The position numbers and the translations under genes were made by a program. Below the pieces are notes generated by a model. It saw only the letters and a list, made by a program, of their open reading frames with translations. It did not search any database and was not told the origin of the DNA. A stretch of 34,795 bases of DNA from Acidimicrobiia bacterium. GTDB lineage: Bacteria > Actinomycetota > Acidimicrobiia > Acidimicrobiales > JANYDT01. Below, piece by piece: positions 1,198 to 14,623 of this stretch. How positions within the stretch are numbered: position 1 is the stretch's first letter; the number at the start of each line of letters is the position of its first letter. The stretch is taken from the NCBI GenBank assembly GCA_025359845.1, contig JANYDT010000125.1, positions 1 through 34,795 of the forward strand, given 5' to 3'.

Positions 1198-1439
1198 CCG
1201 AATAATGTCCGCCCGACGCTAACCGCGTCCAATCGCGACATCGCCTCAGCTCCTAGGACCTCAGCCCCTAGAACCGGTCCAGTACCGACTTCGAAGTTGT
1301 ATGTATTTCTCGACGACGCCCTCGCTCTTGTGTGTTGCGGTGTCCCGACTGACGGGCGCCCTCAGTCGACCGATGCAGGCCGGGTCTGGCTATCGCTATC
1401 GGGAACGAAAACACGACAACAACCGAAGGAGTGCGAGTC

Positions 1440-4400
1440 ATGACTATTCGAAACATCTACCTCAAGATCGAGGCGATACCCGACTACAGCCCCGTCGAAC
1501 CTAGCGGACACGCCGGCGCGCATTATCGGCGCGACTGCATGCGTAACTCCGGCCACGAAGACGGGACAATCCCGGTCTCAGAGGTCGACGCACGACGACT
1601 CGACGCCCTGATCTACCGCGAGTACCTCGACCCGGGCTACCTGATCCCCAAGCCTGACAAGCTGATCCTGACCGACGTCAACGAGCCCGTGTTCCCGCAT
1701 CGGGTCCCCGGCACGGTTCTCTACGCAAACCCTGGCGACCATCTCCACATCCGAGTCGTCAACGCCGACACGATGCCGCACAGCTTCCATGTCCACGGTT
1801 TGGGGTACGGCATCGATTCCGATGGGTCGTGGCCCTTCGGAACGCAAAGCACGGACGGGCGCCGCTCCGACGAAATCTGCCCGGGGCAGTACTGGGTATA
1901 CCACTACAAGGTCACCCGCGAAATGGTCGGGGCGTGGCCGTTCCACGACCATTCCCGCCACATCGCGCAGAGCATCAATCGGGGACTCTTCGGTGGGATC
2001 GTCGTGTTGCCCGACGACTGCGAACGGCCGCGCCCGATGGTCTTACCGCCAATGGTCGCCGAGTATCTGGCCATGAAGTTCCCGGCCCCCGATCCGCATG
2101 CCGACGCGGCCCACGACCACATGCCCGGCGTTGCTGCGCTCGGTGAAGCGGTCCACTTCCACGGGGCCGAACACGACCATGGCGGCCACGGCCCACTCCC
2201 GTTAGCAGTCGCCGACTTCGATCTGCGGGCGAGACGCGACTTTCTGGAGGAGTGGTCCCAGCTCGACTATGCGCATCACCACCCGGCCCACCACGAACCG
2301 CTACACGTCCCCGTTTTCATTCACCAGATGAGCAAGGTGAAAGGGGCGCCGGCGTTCAACAAGAGCCCGTTCTCGCCCGGCGATCCGCCCTTCGAGACGG
2401 TGTTCGGTGCCGCTGGCACCTTCGGCTACCACTGCGAAATTCACCCCTCGATGCAGGGGACCGTGATCGTCGAACCGGGCGGTGTGCCCGAAGCGGTCGT
2501 CGCCATTGTCGACACCGATCCGATGAACATGCGATTCAATCCGACCGAGGTCCACGTCTCGCCAGGCGGTAAGGTCCGCTGGACCGCGCCAACCGTGAAC
2601 ACGCACACGGTCACCGAGAACGGCGCCGGACTACCCAGCTACTGCCTCAACGGACGATCTTTCGTCGGGAACACACCGACCGTCGCGGCGCACGCCGGAC
2701 AGAAGATCATCTGGTATGTGTTCAACCTCGACCTGGGCATGGGCTGGCACAACTTCCATCTCCACGGGCAGCGCTGGAAATTTGCGGGCGAAACTATCGA
2801 CTCGCGAAGCATCGGCCCCGCCGAATCTTTCGTCGTCGAGACCATCGCGCCACCAGTCATTTTGCTCCCCGCCGACATCGCCGCGACACAGGAACCCGAC
2901 TGCCGACACGACGAAGCAAGGCCGTACCGCCTCCGCGGTGACTTCTTGTTCCACTGCCACGTCGAGATGCACATGATGCAAGGCCTCACCGGACTGGTCC
3001 GCTCCACCCAGACCGTATGGCTGACACCAGAACAAGCGAAACGGCTTAACGCCGAAGTCGGCCTGCAACTCGACCACGGTGACAACAGTTGCCCGGTCGT
3101 CGATGAGCATCGCTGCGAAGAGTTCAACTGCGGCAAATGGGAACTCGTGGCCGGCTCGACCGAGGTGTGCATGATGCACGCGGCCTTGCTTCCGAACACC
3201 GAACGAGTACTCATCTTCGGATACGGCGACACGCGCGACGACCTGAGCCGAGTGTGGGACTACAGCACCCCCGCCGGCAGCTTTACGGTCCCGGCCAATC
3301 AACCCTTCGACGTGACCGTCCCGCTCCACAGTCGACCACTCGCGAATATCTGGTCCGCGGAACATGCATTCGTCAACAATGCCGCGGGAACCATCGTGGT
3401 CCACGGCGGTTTCACGCCTCGCGAAAGCTTCTCGTTCGACCCCGCGACCCTTCAATGGGCCCATGAACCAGGGACCGCCGAGGAACGGTTCTATTCGAGC
3501 ACGCTCACGCTCGACGACGGCAGACTCGTCACGCTGTTCGGGTCCGGGTCGAAATCACTCGAGATCTTCGATCCCGCGACGAACACCTGGGGCGCACCGA
3601 TCGCAGTTCCGGCGAGCATGCACCACCACCAGTACTACCCGTGGACCTACGAGCTGCCCAACGGCCAACTGTTCATCGCCGGGCCCCACGTACCAACCCA
3701 ACGGTTCGACGCCATCCCGGCCGTCGCCAACGTCGAATCATTCGCCACGCTGGCCGGCAATCGCAGCACCGGTGGTGAACACGGCACGTCGGTGCTACTC
3801 CCATTGCGACCACCCGCATACACGCCCCACGTGCTCATCGCCGGAGGCGACCCGACCGCCGCACAACTGACCGCAGAGACCATCGACTTGTCGGCCGCGA
3901 CGCCGGCATGGGTAGCTCTTCCCAACCTCAACCGGCCTCGCGCCCAGCAAGTCAACACCGTGCTCCTGCCCGACGGCCGCGTCCTGCTCGCCGGCGGCAT
4001 CGACGGCACCGACGGCGGCCCCGCCGAAATCTTCGACCCCCGCAACCCCGCCGCGGGATGGGAGCTGTGCGCCACAATGTCGATCCCTCGCGGCTACCAC
4101 TCCGCCGCGATCCTGCTTGCCGACGGCAGTGTGCTCATGGGCGGCGATCGCCCCGGCGCCTGGAAATCCGGCGAAACGACCGCCCACGAGCGGTACTTCC
4201 CGTGGTATTACCCCCTCGCACGGCCCGCCATTACCAACGCCCCCGTCATCACGGCATACGGCGCCGCCTTCGACATCTTCACGCCAACCCCGAACGACGT
4301 CGCCGAAGTAGTCCTCCTGAGGCCTGGAGCCGTCACCCACGGCTGGAACCAGTCACAACGCCTGATCGAATGCACCATCACCGCCCGCACCGCCGCCACG

Positions 4401-4514
4401 GTCCAAGTGCAATCACCACCCAACGGCCGCGTGGCACCTCCCGGCTACTACCTCCTCTTCGTCCTCACCGCAACACGAATCCCGTCACACGGACGATGGA
4501 TACGCCTAACCTGA
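1440..4514 (+). CDS. Multicopper oxidase / galactose-oxidase-like (kelch + DUF1929) fusion protein
   Basis: Copper motifs HSFHVHG, WPFHDHS, WHNFHLHGQRW, FHCHVEMHMMQGL; extra cupredoxin motif YHCEIHPSMQG; then kelch-like repeats (DGRLVTLFGSG, DGRVLLAGG, RGYHSAAILLADGSVLMGG) and a galactose-oxidase C-terminal domain (VTHGWNQSQRLIE..PPGYYLLFVL). Track ORF starts at GTG 1431; ATG 1440 has GAAGGAG about 8 nt upstream. Confidence 0.9.
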   Translation: MTIRNIYLKIEAIPDYSPVEPSGHAGAHYRRDCMRNSGHEDGTIPVSEVDARRLDALIYREYLDPGYLIPKPDKLILTDVNEPVFPHRVPGTVLYANPGDHLHIRVVNADTMPHSFHVHGLGYGIDSDGSWPFGTQSTDGRRSDEICPGQYWVYHYKVTREMVGAWPFHDHSRHIAQSINRGLFGGIVVLPDDCERPRPMVLPPMVAEYLAMKFPAPDPHADAAHDHMPGVAALGEAVHFHGAEHDHGGHGPLPLAVADFDLRARRDFLEEWSQLDYAHHHPAHHEPLHVPVFIHQMSKVKGAPAFNKSPFSPGDPPFETVFGAAGTFGYHCEIHPSMQGTVIVEPGGVPEAVVAIVDTDPMNMRFNPTEVHVSPGGKVRWTAPTVNTHTVTENGAGLPSYCLNGRSFVGNTPTVAAHAGQKIIWYVFNLDLGMGWHNFHLHGQRWKFAGETIDSRSIGPAESFVVETIAPPVILLPADIAATQEPDCRHDEARPYRLRGDFLFHCHVEMHMMQGLTGLVRSTQTVWLTPEQAKRLNAEVGLQLDHGDNSCPVVDEHRCEEFNCGKWELVAGSTEVCMMHAALLPNTERVLIFGYGDTRDDLSRVWDYSTPAGSFTVPANQPFDVTVPLHSRPLANIWSAEHAFVNNAAGTIVVHGGFTPRESFSFDPATLQWAHEPGTAEERFYSSTLTLDDGRLVTLFGSGSKSLEIFDPATNTWGAPIAVPASMHHHQYYPWTYELPNGQLFIAGPHVPTQRFDAIPAVANVESFATLAGNRSTGGEHGTSVLLPLRPPAYTPHVLIAGGDPTAAQLTAETIDLSAATPAWVALPNLNRPRAQQVNTVLLPDGRVLLAGGIDGTDGGPAEIFDPRNPAAGWELCATMSIPRGYHSAAILLADGSVLMGGDRPGAWKSGETTAHERYFPWYYPLARPAITNAPVITAYGAAFDIFTPTPNDVAEVVLLRPGAVTHGWNQSQRLIECTITARTAATVQVQSPPNGRVAPPGYYLLFVLTATRIPSHGRWIRLT

Positions 4515-4813: not shown

Positions 4814-5706
4814 CTAAGGCGGCAGAAGTAGCCAGTTGCGAATGAGGTCGATGCAGTCTGGACGGTCGGCCCAGACGAAGTGGGATGCGTGCGCGATGAG
4901 TTCCAGTCTGGCGTTCGGGCCGATGGCATCAGCGATTGCCACGATCCCGCTGGCCGGCGTCACTGGATCCTCGACACCGCCAAGAACGAGGGTGGGCGTA
5001 GTGGTACCGGCAAGCCCGGGAAGCAGATCCATAGTCTGCATTTCCCCTGCAGAAAGTGAAACATGACGTCGTAGTTGGAAACAGATCTGCTCGGCGGAAG
5101 CGGTGCAGCAACGGCATAGATGGGTCCTGAAAGCGGAAGAAATGCGGCACCATTTTCCGGAGTTGGGTTCCGCCAAAATGTCTCAGCCGCCTCTCTGATC
5201 TCAGGCCGAACTCCGCGCTTGTCGAGCACCGCAAGCTGTTCTTCGACGACTACTCGTGCGGTGCCGGACACCAGGACGACCTTCGTTGCGTGGGTTGGGT
5301 GCCGGGCGAGGTACCGCATCGCGACCATCGCACCGAATGATGCCCCTAGGACGAATGGCTTTTCGATTCCGAGTACGTCGCAGACCCGGATCACGTCATC
5401 GGCCCACTGGTCGAGGTTCCACTCGCTCGAGTCGCGTCGATCACTGCGTCGGTGGTCGACGAACACCACCTGCATGTCTTCGGCGAGCGGGAGGAGATCG
5501 GGCTTGAAAGAGGAGTGGTCATGGCCTGGTCCACCGTGGAGCAACACGAGAGTCGGATACTTTTTCAACCGGTCGCCATCAGGTCGATGCGAACAACCGT
5601 CCACGTCGACGAATAATCGGACACCTGGCTCGATCTGAACTCGCACAACCCTACGGTCCCACCCCGACGAGACAAGATCAACCTCACCTCCCACCGATGG
5701 TGGCAC
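4814..5706 (-). pseudogene. Alpha/beta hydrolase (proline iminopeptidase-like), interrupted by a single-base frameshift
   Basis: ORF 4960..5706 carries oxyanion motif HGGPG and nucleophile GASFG; the C-terminal part with EDPVTP (acid) and HASHF (His) is in another frame (4814..5176). The frames join at GGGGAAATG on the minus strand (plus 5044-5047 CCCC). Confidence 0.82.
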
Positions 5707-8010: not shown

Positions 8011-10293
<2,283 letters not shown>

Positions 10294-10428: not shown

Positions 10429-12246
10429 TCAGCCGCCGCAGATCGGAACTTTCGGACGCACTGCGGTGCGTTGGAGGATATTCAACGCGAACGGCACATA
10501 CTCGGTCTGAAGCTTGACGCCCGGAAGGGACTTCAGCACTTTCTCGGCGCCAGGCGCGATCTTGAAGCCCACACCGGCTTTGGCGTCGATCGACACCGTC
10601 ACACCCCGGCATTTCACGATGCCGAGATCCGATCCGACGGTCGCCCCGACGGCCACCGTGAGGGCGCCGAACGGACCGGCGTTGGCCGCCGTCACGCCCA
10701 AGCCGATCTGAGTCTTCAGCTGCACCGCGAGCACGATGCCGTTCACGCCGACCGACAACCCGCCGAGGGTGTCGAGCAAGGGCCTCACCACCGTGAACTT
10801 CGGGGTCTCGGCGATGGCGCCGCCGGTCCCGGTGTAGCTGGCGCCCAGGTCTCCCTCCAAGCCGTACTGAGCGAAGCCCTGGATGGTCGAGTTCTTGGCG
10901 CTGAAAGCGGTGTCGACGAGCAGCGCCAGTTTCACCGACACGACATAAGGGATGCCCGCCGCTGAGATTCCTTGGTACTGCGACTCGAAGGGCAGTTCGG
11001 CCTTTACCTTGTAGTTGTCCGACAACCCGTTCTCCGACCCGGCCGCCAGCGAGACCACAACGCCCTTCACTCCTTGCAGTTTGAAGTCGCCGCTCTCGAC
11101 CTTCCCGCCATGGATGTTCAGCGACGATCTGATGTGCAGCCGTTCGACGTCGAAGCACATCTGCAGCCCGAGCTTCAGCTTGGTGTTGCTGCGGATCCAC
11201 AGACGCAGCGTGGTCGGCGTGATGTCGCTCTCGACCCCCACTTTCCCGACCTCGAGCTTCACGTTGCCACTCGACCGCGGTTGGGGCTGCGCGGCGTCGG
11301 CCCCGCTCCCGTCCGAGGCGCCGCTTGCCCCTGAGGAGGTAAGGCTCTGGCCCCCTTGGAGCCCGAACTGCTTGAACAGCGGATCGAACGCCGTGTTCTG
11401 CTCGCCTTGGGGTGCTCCGGCCGCACACGAGCCAGCCGCGGGCGCCTTGTCGCGCGTGAACGACTCCGACGATCGCGTCGGCACCGTGTTGCGGGTGGTC
11501 TTCCCATCCGGGCGCGGCTTCGGGGCCGGGGGTGGCGCGGGAGACGGTGTCGCCGCGGTCAGCGCGAATGGAGCACGGAGCACGCGCCGCAACAGCCGCC
11601 CCATCGAGGCGGCCGGAGCAACTACCACTCGCACTGCGGGCCCGAGTATGTGGGCCGTGCTCGAGGAGTCAGGCCCCGGCGCGCTGGTCGTCGTGGCCCC
11701 GGTGTCGGCGGTAACCGGGCCGCTGGCCAAGTGGGGCGTTTCGACGCTGAGCAGTCCCGGCGAGAGCTGCGTAGCGAGGGTGGCGGTATCGATGGGCTGG
11801 TCGAAATCGAGGCGCCCCTCCCGGATCACGTCAGTGATGTCCGCCGGTCCGAGGGTGACCACGAGATCGGTGCCGCGCTTCTCGATCGCGGCGACCCGGC
11901 CCATCCCGCGAGACGTGAGGAACATCACCTTGCCCACGGCCAGTTCCGAAGCCCGCGAGGCCGACGCGTTGATGGTCCACACCGCGCCGGTGTCGCTCAC
12001 GGACTTCACCGAATCGGCCCCGCCACCGACCATGACGACGTCGGGCTGCAAGGCGATGTGGCTGTCGGGATGGGGCGCCAGCCCGTACTGCTCCTCGGCC
12101 GATGTCAGGTTGCCGAACTTCGCGGGCGTATCCAAAGCCGGCGACGCCTTGGACGACGATCCGCCGCTGTTGCACGCCGCCAGCCCGAGGGCGACCGCCA
12201 ACCCGGCCAGCGTGGCGCCCGCCCGGCGGCGGGACCGGGCGTTCAC
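10429..12246 (-). CDS. Predicted lipoprotein, beta-rich C-terminal region, unknown function
   Basis: GTG start overlapping the upstream stop (GTGA); lipobox-type signal LAVALGLAAC; Pro/Ser-rich linker then long alternating beta-like segment. Track ORF extends upstream to 12642 but overlaps the neighbouring gene. Confidence 0.7.
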   Translation of the reverse strand: MNARSRRRAGATLAGLAVALGLAACNSGGSSSKASPALDTPAKFGNLTSAEEQYGLAPHPDSHIALQPDVVMVGGGADSVKSVSDTGAVWTINASASRASELAVGKVMFLTSRGMGRVAAIEKRGTDLVVTLGPADITDVIREGRLDFDQPIDTATLATQLSPGLLSVETPHLASGPVTADTGATTTSAPGPDSSSTAHILGPAVRVVVAPAASMGRLLRRVLRAPFALTAATPSPAPPPAPKPRPDGKTTRNTVPTRSSESFTRDKAPAAGSCAAGAPQGEQNTAFDPLFKQFGLQGGQSLTSSGASGASDGSGADAAQPQPRSSGNVKLEVGKVGVESDITPTTLRLWIRSNTKLKLGLQMCFDVERLHIRSSLNIHGGKVESGDFKLQGVKGVVVSLAAGSENGLSDNYKVKAELPFESQYQGISAAGIPYVVSVKLALLVDTAFSAKNSTIQGFAQYGLEGDLGASYTGTGGAIAETPKFTVVRPLLDTLGGLSVGVNGIVLAVQLKTQIGLGVTAANAGPFGALTVAVGATVGSDLGIVKCRGVTVSIDAKAGVGFKIAPGAEKVLKSLPGVKLQTEYVPFALNILQRTAVRPKVPICGG

Positions 12247-14111
12247 AGCCCCCCTCCCAATCCGCCGGCGAGCACAGCCTTGAACGTGGTTTCGGGGAAC
12301 GCGTCGGTCGTGACGTCGACAGTCTCGTCGCCGCCGCGCAGGACCACGCCGAGCGGACCGGGACGAAACGAGTCGGGCACGTGGAACACGACGCTCTCCC
12401 GATGGGTCTCCCCCGGCCCGAACTGCACCAACCCGCCATCGCCGACGGCCTGCTGGAGGTAGCCATCGGGCCGGGACAGGAACACCTGCACGGACGGACG
12501 GAAGGAGAGCCCCAGCGCCTTGGCCTGAGCGTCGGCGGCGATCGTCACGTCCATAGTGAGTTCCAACTCGGTGCGTCCGGGCGGCGGCGGGAGGGTGGTC
12601 TGGAGGCGGCCGAGCCGATACGACCGCATCGTGATCGTCCACTCGCCGGCGGTGACGGCGGGCGCGGTAACTTTTGCCTCAACCGGCAGCGGCGGATACA
12701 GACCGATGGCCGAGCCGTCGGTCAACGGAACAGTCGACGCGGACCCGTGGTTCGAGCCGATCGCCAGAGCGAGGTCCTTCGGGTCGAGCGAGTCGACCCG
12801 AAGGAACTGGATGGTGACCACGGCCGGTTTGGCCGGGTCGACCTCGGTCGGACCGGAGACGATGCCGGTGTACCACTGGCCGGCCGACCCGAGGAGAGCC
12901 GAGAACGAGAACTGGGGCGGGGTGTCGAGCAGCCCCGCCACCGCGCCGGGCGCGGTCGACGTGTCGGCTGGCGCGCTGTCGCGGCGTTCCAGCACGGTGG
13001 CCGTACCCGTGAGGTCCGCGGTCTTGGCGACCGGGTCCCAGGCTATCCGCGTCGGCTGGAACAAGAACCCAGGCACGTTCACCGCGCTGCCGTGGAGGGC
13101 GAGGTGGAACGCTTTCGCCGGGGCGACGGGCGCGCCGCTCGCGAACACGGACAGGTCGGGTCGGGGCGGCTCGGCGGGCGATAGCGGACTCGGAGCGACC
13201 TCGGGGAGCGTGAAGTCGAGCGCCGACCGTTCAAGCAGCTCGGGGTGGAACGTCGAGAACCCCTTGGTCGATAGGCTTGTCAGCATCAGCTGATACCGGC
13301 CCGCCGCCTTGGCCGCGATCGGGAACTCGATCCAGTGCCCGGCGTCGGCCGTCCAACTGACCGGGGCGATCCCGTCGCTGCTCTGATCGGTCTGCGCGAC
13401 GGTGCCGTCTGGCTGTTTCAGCGAGAGATGCTCGACCGGATAGAAGCCGTTGACGGGGTCCTCAGCGGCCGCCCATTCGTCGAAGTCGAGCCGCAGGACT
13501 CGCAGCGACGGGTCGGCCTCGGCGTCGAGGTTGAGGAACCCGCTCAGCACCCGCCCGCCTGTGACGTGCACGCCGTACTTGCCGACGCGGACCCATCCGT
13601 CGATCTTGACCGGTGTGGGCGTCCATCCGGCGAGGACCTTGCCATCGGCGAGCCGGACCTTGGTGACCGTGCGATCGGGCCGTCCCCAAAGGAGGGTGGC
13701 CGTGGCCGTGGGGTCTCGGATGAGGTTGGGGAAGGTGACGGTCTTTTCGGCCGACTGCCCTGGCGGCACGGTCACGGGTTCGGTGAGAAGGGCCGAGGTG
13801 TTGTCTCCGTCACGCAGCTCAGCCTGTCCCAGCGCGTCATGCCACTCGCCCCCGATGTTGGTGTAGCGCACACCCACGGCGAGGGTCTTGTGGGTCTCGT
13901 CGTACACGGCATCGCCGAGCCTGACCAGGAAGCCGCCATACTCGTATGCGGCGCCGAGGTGATGGAGGATCTGCCCGGGACCGAGGGCGAGCGGAGCCAC
14001 GGTGCTCGAAACAGGAGTCGTTGGCGTTGTCGGCTTCGTCCCGCCACCACCGCATCCCGCCGCGATGACGGCGATCACGGCGCCGGCCGCCAACCGTCGG
14101 AGTCGCCTCAC
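12243..14111 (-). CDS. Predicted lipoprotein of unknown function
   Basis: Signal peptide MRRLRRLAAGAVIAVIAAGC (lipobox); 622 aa; start overlaps the preceding stop (ATGA). Confidence 0.75.
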   Translation of the reverse strand: MRRLRRLAAGAVIAVIAAGCGGGGTKPTTPTTPVSSTVAPLALGPGQILHHLGAAYEYGGFLVRLGDAVYDETHKTLAVGVRYTNIGGEWHDALGQAELRDGDNTSALLTEPVTVPPGQSAEKTVTFPNLIRDPTATATLLWGRPDRTVTKVRLADGKVLAGWTPTPVKIDGWVRVGKYGVHVTGGRVLSGFLNLDAEADPSLRVLRLDFDEWAAAEDPVNGFYPVEHLSLKQPDGTVAQTDQSSDGIAPVSWTADAGHWIEFPIAAKAAGRYQLMLTSLSTKGFSTFHPELLERSALDFTLPEVAPSPLSPAEPPRPDLSVFASGAPVAPAKAFHLALHGSAVNVPGFLFQPTRIAWDPVAKTADLTGTATVLERRDSAPADTSTAPGAVAGLLDTPPQFSFSALLGSAGQWYTGIVSGPTEVDPAKPAVVTIQFLRVDSLDPKDLALAIGSNHGSASTVPLTDGSAIGLYPPLPVEAKVTAPAVTAGEWTITMRSYRLGRLQTTLPPPPGRTELELTMDVTIAADAQAKALGLSFRPSVQVFLSRPDGYLQQAVGDGGLVQFGPGETHRESVVFHVPDSFRPGPLGVVLRGGDETVDVTTDAFPETTFKAVLAGGLGGGL

Positions 14112-14623
14112 AGGTCACCGCTCTCGTTCGCGCCGCCCTCGGCCCCGCACGGCCCGACCTCAGGCACCGCGAGGATCACGGGCTGGACCGCCTTGGCCGG
14201 TTTGGTGTCACTTGGCGCGACCGTCGTCGAGTCGGGGCCCGCGGGCCGCGTGTCCGCGCCGGGCGGCGCGCTGAGCACCTTGCCGTCGGGCTGTCGGGCG
14301 GCGACGTTCTGGTCAGGGTCGGGCGGACGGGCGAAGGTGCGGGTAATCGGCGCGGCCGGCAGCGTGGTGAGGGCCATGCCCGGTCCGGGTCTCTGGCGGG
14401 CCCCCGCAGCCGCGTACGGATCCACGTCGTTCGGTCCCGACAACTTGACCGTCGCCGGTTTTGTGCACGTCGGAGGGGAGGTCACGACGGGGGGCAGCTG
14501 CTCCAGGGTCGTTGGCGTCGTGACGGGAGCTGAACCCGAGCCCCCGCACGACGCGAGCACGGTGGCGCAGCCCGCGGCCAACGCGACCCGGATCGCAGCG
14601 CGCCAACGGCACGGTTTCGGCAT
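14108..14623 (-). CDS. Predicted small Pro/Thr-rich lipoprotein
   Basis: Signal ALAAGCATVLASC lipobox; stop overlaps the next gene's start. Confidence 0.68.
   Translation of the reverse strand: MPKPCRWRAAIRVALAAGCATVLASCGGSGSAPVTTPTTLEQLPPVVTSPPTCTKPATVKLSGPNDVDPYAAAGARQRPGPGMALTTLPAAPITRTFARPPDPDQNVAARQPDGKVLSAPPGADTRPAGPDSTTVAPSDTKPAKAVQPVILAVPEVGPCGAEGGANESGDL

Follow-up and report, generated by a model that had tools for sequence, protein, structure and literature searches.

GlxA of Streptomyces lividans (PDB accession no. 4unm; equivalog NF052501) combines a kelch propeller with an E-set domain and carries a Tyr, Tyr-His, His set of copper ligands, a fold and ligand set also found in galactose oxidase (GO) and the AA5 copper radical oxidases. 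Two residues matter for its Tyr-Cys radical cofactor: the C121G variant of the Streptomyces enzyme is unable to form the cross-link (PMC4736821), and cofactor formation depends critically on Trp288 (PMC13094651). Among multicopper oxidases (MCOs), ceruloplasmin and the two-domain laccases have trinuclear copper motifs in their first and last domains, while amicyanin and plastocyanin hold their type 1 (T1) copper with a C-x2-H-x2-M motif and an upstream His.

The protein described here is encoded in a window of 34,795 nucleotides from an Acidimicrobiia bacterium (contig JANYDT010000125.1) and resembles each of these systems in part. Like GlxA, it has the propeller, the E-set domain, and the aligned ligands, but Ser replaces Cys121, Phe replaces Trp288, an MCO precedes the propeller, and a signal peptide is absent; unlike galactose oxidase and the AA5 enzymes, it has no Tyr-Cys pair and is fused to an MCO. 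Ceruloplasmin and two-domain laccases are the closest sequence and fold neighbors of its MCO half, which differs from both in an amicyanin-like middle T1 site and the fused GO module and has fewer domains than ceruloplasmin. In contrast to amicyanin and plastocyanin, this T1 domain is embedded inside an MCO. No description of the MCO-GO architecture was found in the openly accessible papers searched. The proteins make up a naturally occurring, conserved family that retains the copper ligands of a radical copper oxidase but not its Tyr-Cys cofactor, joined to an enzyme predicted to reduce O2 by another route. The family thereby makes two ideas testable, namely, that a GO copper site can work without a radical and that two copper-oxidase folds can share electrons.

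Gene layout and the multicopper oxidase half

The fusion gene (1024 amino acids) lies at positions 1440 to 4514 of the window on the forward strand (+), as do all of its features given below. The uninterrupted open reading frame (ORF) spans 1431 to 4514, with the stop at 4514. We preferred the ATG at 1440 over the GTG at 1431 because a Shine-Dalgarno-like AAGGAG (1426 to 1431) ends 8 nt upstream of the former and because the complete relatives begin with M-A-I-R-N at the equivalent alignment position. The single chain begins with a ceruloplasmin-like MCO that contains an additional T1 site of the amicyanin type; a kelch propeller and a GO-type C-terminal domain come after it. Pfam matches, whose coordinates run 3 amino acids above the ATG 1440 numbering since translation began at GTG 1431, comprise Cu-oxidase_3 (91 to 194; 3e-10) and Cu-oxidase_2 (384 to 524; 2e-12), both above cutoff, Glyoxal_oxid_N (639 to 806; 8e-9), slightly below its cutoff, Kelch matches in the second half, and GO-like_E_set, the former DUF1929 (931 to 1025; 2e-24), the last being the sole E-set match in the entire 4.69-Mb genome. 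The kelch-like repeats and DUF1929-type C terminus noted in the initial annotation are thus borne out, as is its central proposal of one polypeptide joining an MCO to a galactose-oxidase-like module. That separate genes or an assembly join could mimic such a layout has practically no probability left: the gene is in two pieces in one genome (G017), though each piece stops at a contig end, and the same single-ORF architecture recurs in full-length relatives from independent assemblies of several phyla, which excludes a join.

The first MCO domain (1440 to 2030), assigned from Pfam, profile matches, and motifs, is ceruloplasmin/two-domain-laccase-like and holds the trinuclear-copper motifs HSFHVHG (1779 to 1799; residues 114 to 120) and WPFHDHS (1935 to 1955; residues 166 to 172). 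A His-rich linker between domains 1 and 2 (2052 to 2225; 8 His in 58 amino acids), low in confidence in the model, is found by alignment in the five closest members and differs in sequence among relatives. The middle cupredoxin domain (2301 to 2490), which matches an amicyanin model, carries a complete T1 site that the initial annotation had missed, with His295 in FIHQM (2316 to 2330) and Cys332, His335, and Met338 in FGYHCEIHPSM (2421 to 2453); these four ligands are invariant in all eight MCO halves aligned. A second plastocyanin-like stretch (2499 to 2640; Pfam, alignment) has an invariant His389 and no Cys. Finally, the C-terminal MCO domain (2640 to 3060; Pfam, alignment) bears T1 ligands, with Leu at the axial position, and trinuclear ligands, in the motifs WHNFHLHG (2745 to 2768; residues 436 to 443) and HCHVEMHMMQGL (2952 to 2987; residues 505 to 516). 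All four quoted motifs had been read exactly, and they supply the full MCO series HxHG, HxH, HxxHxH, and HCHxxxH; T1 and trinuclear ligand motifs are kept in every fusion member that covers them. A profile of this half retrieves ceruloplasmin first from the PDB (1e-25) and then two-domain laccases, and a fold search agrees, although with a low-confidence model (AlphaFold2 of the MCO half alone, mean pLDDT of 62.8) that weighs against the explanation we favor below. The MCO should be functional.

No hydrophobic N-terminal signal is visible in the window protein or in any fusion member (the ORF of one, L044, begins at a contig end), unlike the free-standing Burkholderia and Streptomyces enzymes, which have such a segment. 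This is unusual for an MCO or a copper radical oxidase and makes cytosolic copper loading hard to explain, a further point against the favored explanation. An Hcp-like or secretion-tag reading of the conserved N terminus, IYLKIExI..YSP, was set aside because this segment, which lies beyond the profile alignments, may correspond to the leading strand in the A domains of ceruloplasmin and factor V.

Copper ligands without cofactor residues in the galactose-oxidase half

The propeller (3117 to 4200) is of the galactose-oxidase type according to Pfam, its PDB sequence neighbors, and the model, and is followed by the GO-like_E_set domain (4227 to 4514; Pfam). Among solved structures, those closest in sequence to this half are GlxA and bacterial galactose oxidase, and the AlphaFold2 model of the complete protein, which is confident mostly here, matches galactose oxidases first. 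We aligned 23 GO-type domains, seven of them from the clade of the window protein (itself plus the six fused proteins closest to it). The copper ligands equatorial Tyr685 (GO Tyr272), axial Tyr886 with His887 (4095 to 4100; GO Tyr495-His496), and His966 in the E-set domain (4335 to 4337; GO His581) are present in all 23. The cross-linking Cys (GlxA Cys121, GO Cys228), in contrast, is found in all 16 other domains but is Ser in seven of seven clade members (Ser639; 3354 to 3356), and the stacking Trp, likewise present in 16 of 16, is Phe in every clade member (Phe684, adjacent to Tyr685; 3489 to 3494), at the residue that aligns with position 288 of the GlxA W288A structures. No conserved substitute for the Cys was found, a candidate near the axial Tyr (LCATM) being missing in two members (L044 and L047). 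The window protein thus has the fold and the Tyr, Tyr, His, His ligands of a copper radical oxidase without the cross-linking Cys and stacking Trp, and it scores 133.3 bits against the GlxA equivalog NF052501, whose cutoff is 800. While the loss of Trp alone would not exclude activity, since some fungal AA5_2 enzymes have another aromatic residue there, the missing Cys argues that the protein should not be classed as a copper radical oxidase.

These substitutions, which the initial annotation had overlooked, undercut its suggestion of a second half that makes H2O2 as a Tyr-Cys radical oxidase. Two copper-oxidase folds do share one chain, as proposed, and the GO ligands are retained; however, two active oxidases, the second a radical H2O2 producer coupled to the MCO, are very unlikely here, because the window protein and the rest of its clade have Ser for the cross-linking Cys and Phe for the stacking Trp, the positions whose importance is known from the GlxA variants cited above. 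A distant gammaproteobacterial fusion (L045) that retains both residues could be such an enzyme. In the window protein, the GO half probably does not act as another oxidase of the ordinary type.

It would very likely still bind copper, as its ligands are invariant in all seven clade members down to about 50% GO-half identity while other positions change freely. The same observation speaks against a metal-free propeller serving only to bind a glycan, a surface, or a partner, which we consider unlikely, even though the cofactor residues are lost and kelch propellers often bind rather than catalyze. Another reading is a different catalytic copper site, with either an unmodified Tyr or a cross-link of a new kind, rebuilt by Trp638, His729, and His730. 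The residue before the Cys position changes from Phe to Trp (Trp638) in seven of seven members, so that the F-C...R-W-Y found elsewhere becomes W-S...R-F-Y throughout the clade, an aromatic swap that looks compensatory. Moreover, His729-His730 (3624 to 3629), which phmmer aligns to the RSDNHAW segment of bacterial galactose oxidase, is invariant in the Cys-less clade and absent outside it. No precedent for such a site was found in the literature searched, and we hold it to be doubtful.

The explanation we favor, with about an even chance of being right, is that the MCO does the redox work and the radical-less GO half is a copper or substrate module. The MCO would accept electrons singly at its T1 copper and reduce O2 to water at the trinuclear center, and the amicyanin-like second T1 copper would let electrons in at another point or relay them. 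The GO half would bind one copper through Tyr685, Tyr886, His887, and His966; being unable to build the Tyr-Cys cofactor, it would not act as a standard two-electron, H2O2-making oxidase but, as a site for metal or substrate, could feed or dock substrate to the MCO. The predicted copper content is at most six per chain (three trinuclear, two T1, and one in the propeller), and the protein may have a role in handling copper or another metal. This explanation draws support from the MCO motifs, the amicyanin-type site, the ceruloplasmin match, the GlxA and galactose oxidase matches of the GO half, the loss of Cys and Trp with ligands kept, and the selection and Rhizobacter gene context described below. 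It is also conceivable, if distinctly improbable, that the GO copper site, without radical or O2 chemistry, passes electrons via the amicyanin-like T1 site to the trinuclear center; such a hand-over would oxidize an alcohol, an aldehyde, or a metal with water, not peroxide, as the end product.

Distribution and ancestry of the fusion

A scan of 84,980 species genomes returned four full-length relatives that are 71 to 82% identical to the window protein, in metagenome-assembled genomes (MAGs) labeled Acidimicrobiales, Rhizobacter, Nitrospira, and Fimbriiglobus. Genome searches turned up three more: another fusion in Nitrospirota (about half identical), L045 (41% overall identity), and, in the order to which the window genome belongs, a copy interrupted by contig ends. 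The fusion gene is rare: it occurs in 1 of 347 genomes sampled from its own phylum (the window genome itself), 2 of 246 from Nitrospirota, 1 of 343 from Planctomycetota, 1 of 351 from the Rhizobacter family, and 2 of 274 from the Rhizobacter class. Because identity between phyla equals that inside the window's family, with dS of about 1 in both, the comparison points to older horizontal transfer, although mis-binning of single contigs into MAGs is possible. GC content of the Nitrospira gene (59.1%) exceeds that of its flanks (55.2%), while gene and flanks are close in the other genomes. Carriage by mobile elements was rejected, as viral contigs held no match and no plasmid record contained the full fusion. 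Values of dN/dS between 0.05 and 0.15 for the MCO halves and between 0.05 and 0.11 for the GO halves indicate purifying selection, as strong on the GO half as on the MCO half; the GO half is therefore functional rather than decaying.

The Cys- and Trp-bearing L045 combines halves of different affinity. Its MCO half is 49% identical to that of the window protein, as near as other diverged members, whereas its GO half shares only 33% identity with that of the window protein but 42 to 44% with free-standing Streptomyces and Nostoc enzymes, and groups in the tree with free-standing GlxA-type enzymes (support of 100/99). An approximately unbiased (AU) test on the GO half, chosen after the tree was seen and with long branches in play, rejects a single all-fusion clade (p = 0.0007) and with it a single origin of the fusion. 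Since the MCO half stays near the window's while the GO half sides with free-standing enzymes, the simplest reading of these comparisons suggests that one kind of MCO recruited GO partners twice or swapped its partner. That one kind of MCO is found with two different GO lineages in turn suggests a functional partnership. Upstream of the L045 fusion, an ORF of at least 212 amino acids (3235 to 3875, -) overlaps it by 4 bp (ATGA); this ORF matches no Pfam family, has one hydrophobic segment, and is possibly a translationally coupled partner.

Genomic neighborhoods

In Rhizobacter, the fusion gene is part of a copper-resistance cluster and lies directly downstream of cusS/cusR on the same strand, in the vicinity of genes for a copper-type P-ATPase, an outer-membrane efflux protein, a second MCO, a cupredoxin, and a DUF411 protein. 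This copper-gene context is confined to one genome, the other neighborhoods being unrelated and having mostly nothing in common, which counts against the explanation of a copper or substrate module serving the MCO. No Sco copper chaperone was found in the window's own genome (93% complete).

Several other genes of the window were recorded. A KatG-type catalase-peroxidase with two peroxidase domains (8074 to 10293, +), 3.5 kb downstream of the fusion, was given no weight. An alpha/beta hydrolase (4814 to 5706, -) is apparently frameshifted: the ORF at 4960 to 5706 (-) covers its N-terminal part, matching Abhydrolase_1 up to profile position 141, and is overlapped in another frame by an ORF (4814 to 5176) that appears to be the C-terminal part, with a His motif at its end. 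Adjacent lipoprotein-like ORFs (12243 to 14623, -), with a Cys close to where a signal-like start ends, have no Pfam match, and neither does a 737-amino-acid ORF that overlaps them (10429 to 12642). Outside the window, the gene for a galactose-oxidase-type enzyme overlaps that for a Sco copper chaperone on a conjugative plasmid of Burkholderia ambifaria (L055, 1400 to 4749), an overlap also reported in other Burkholderia (PMC4736821).
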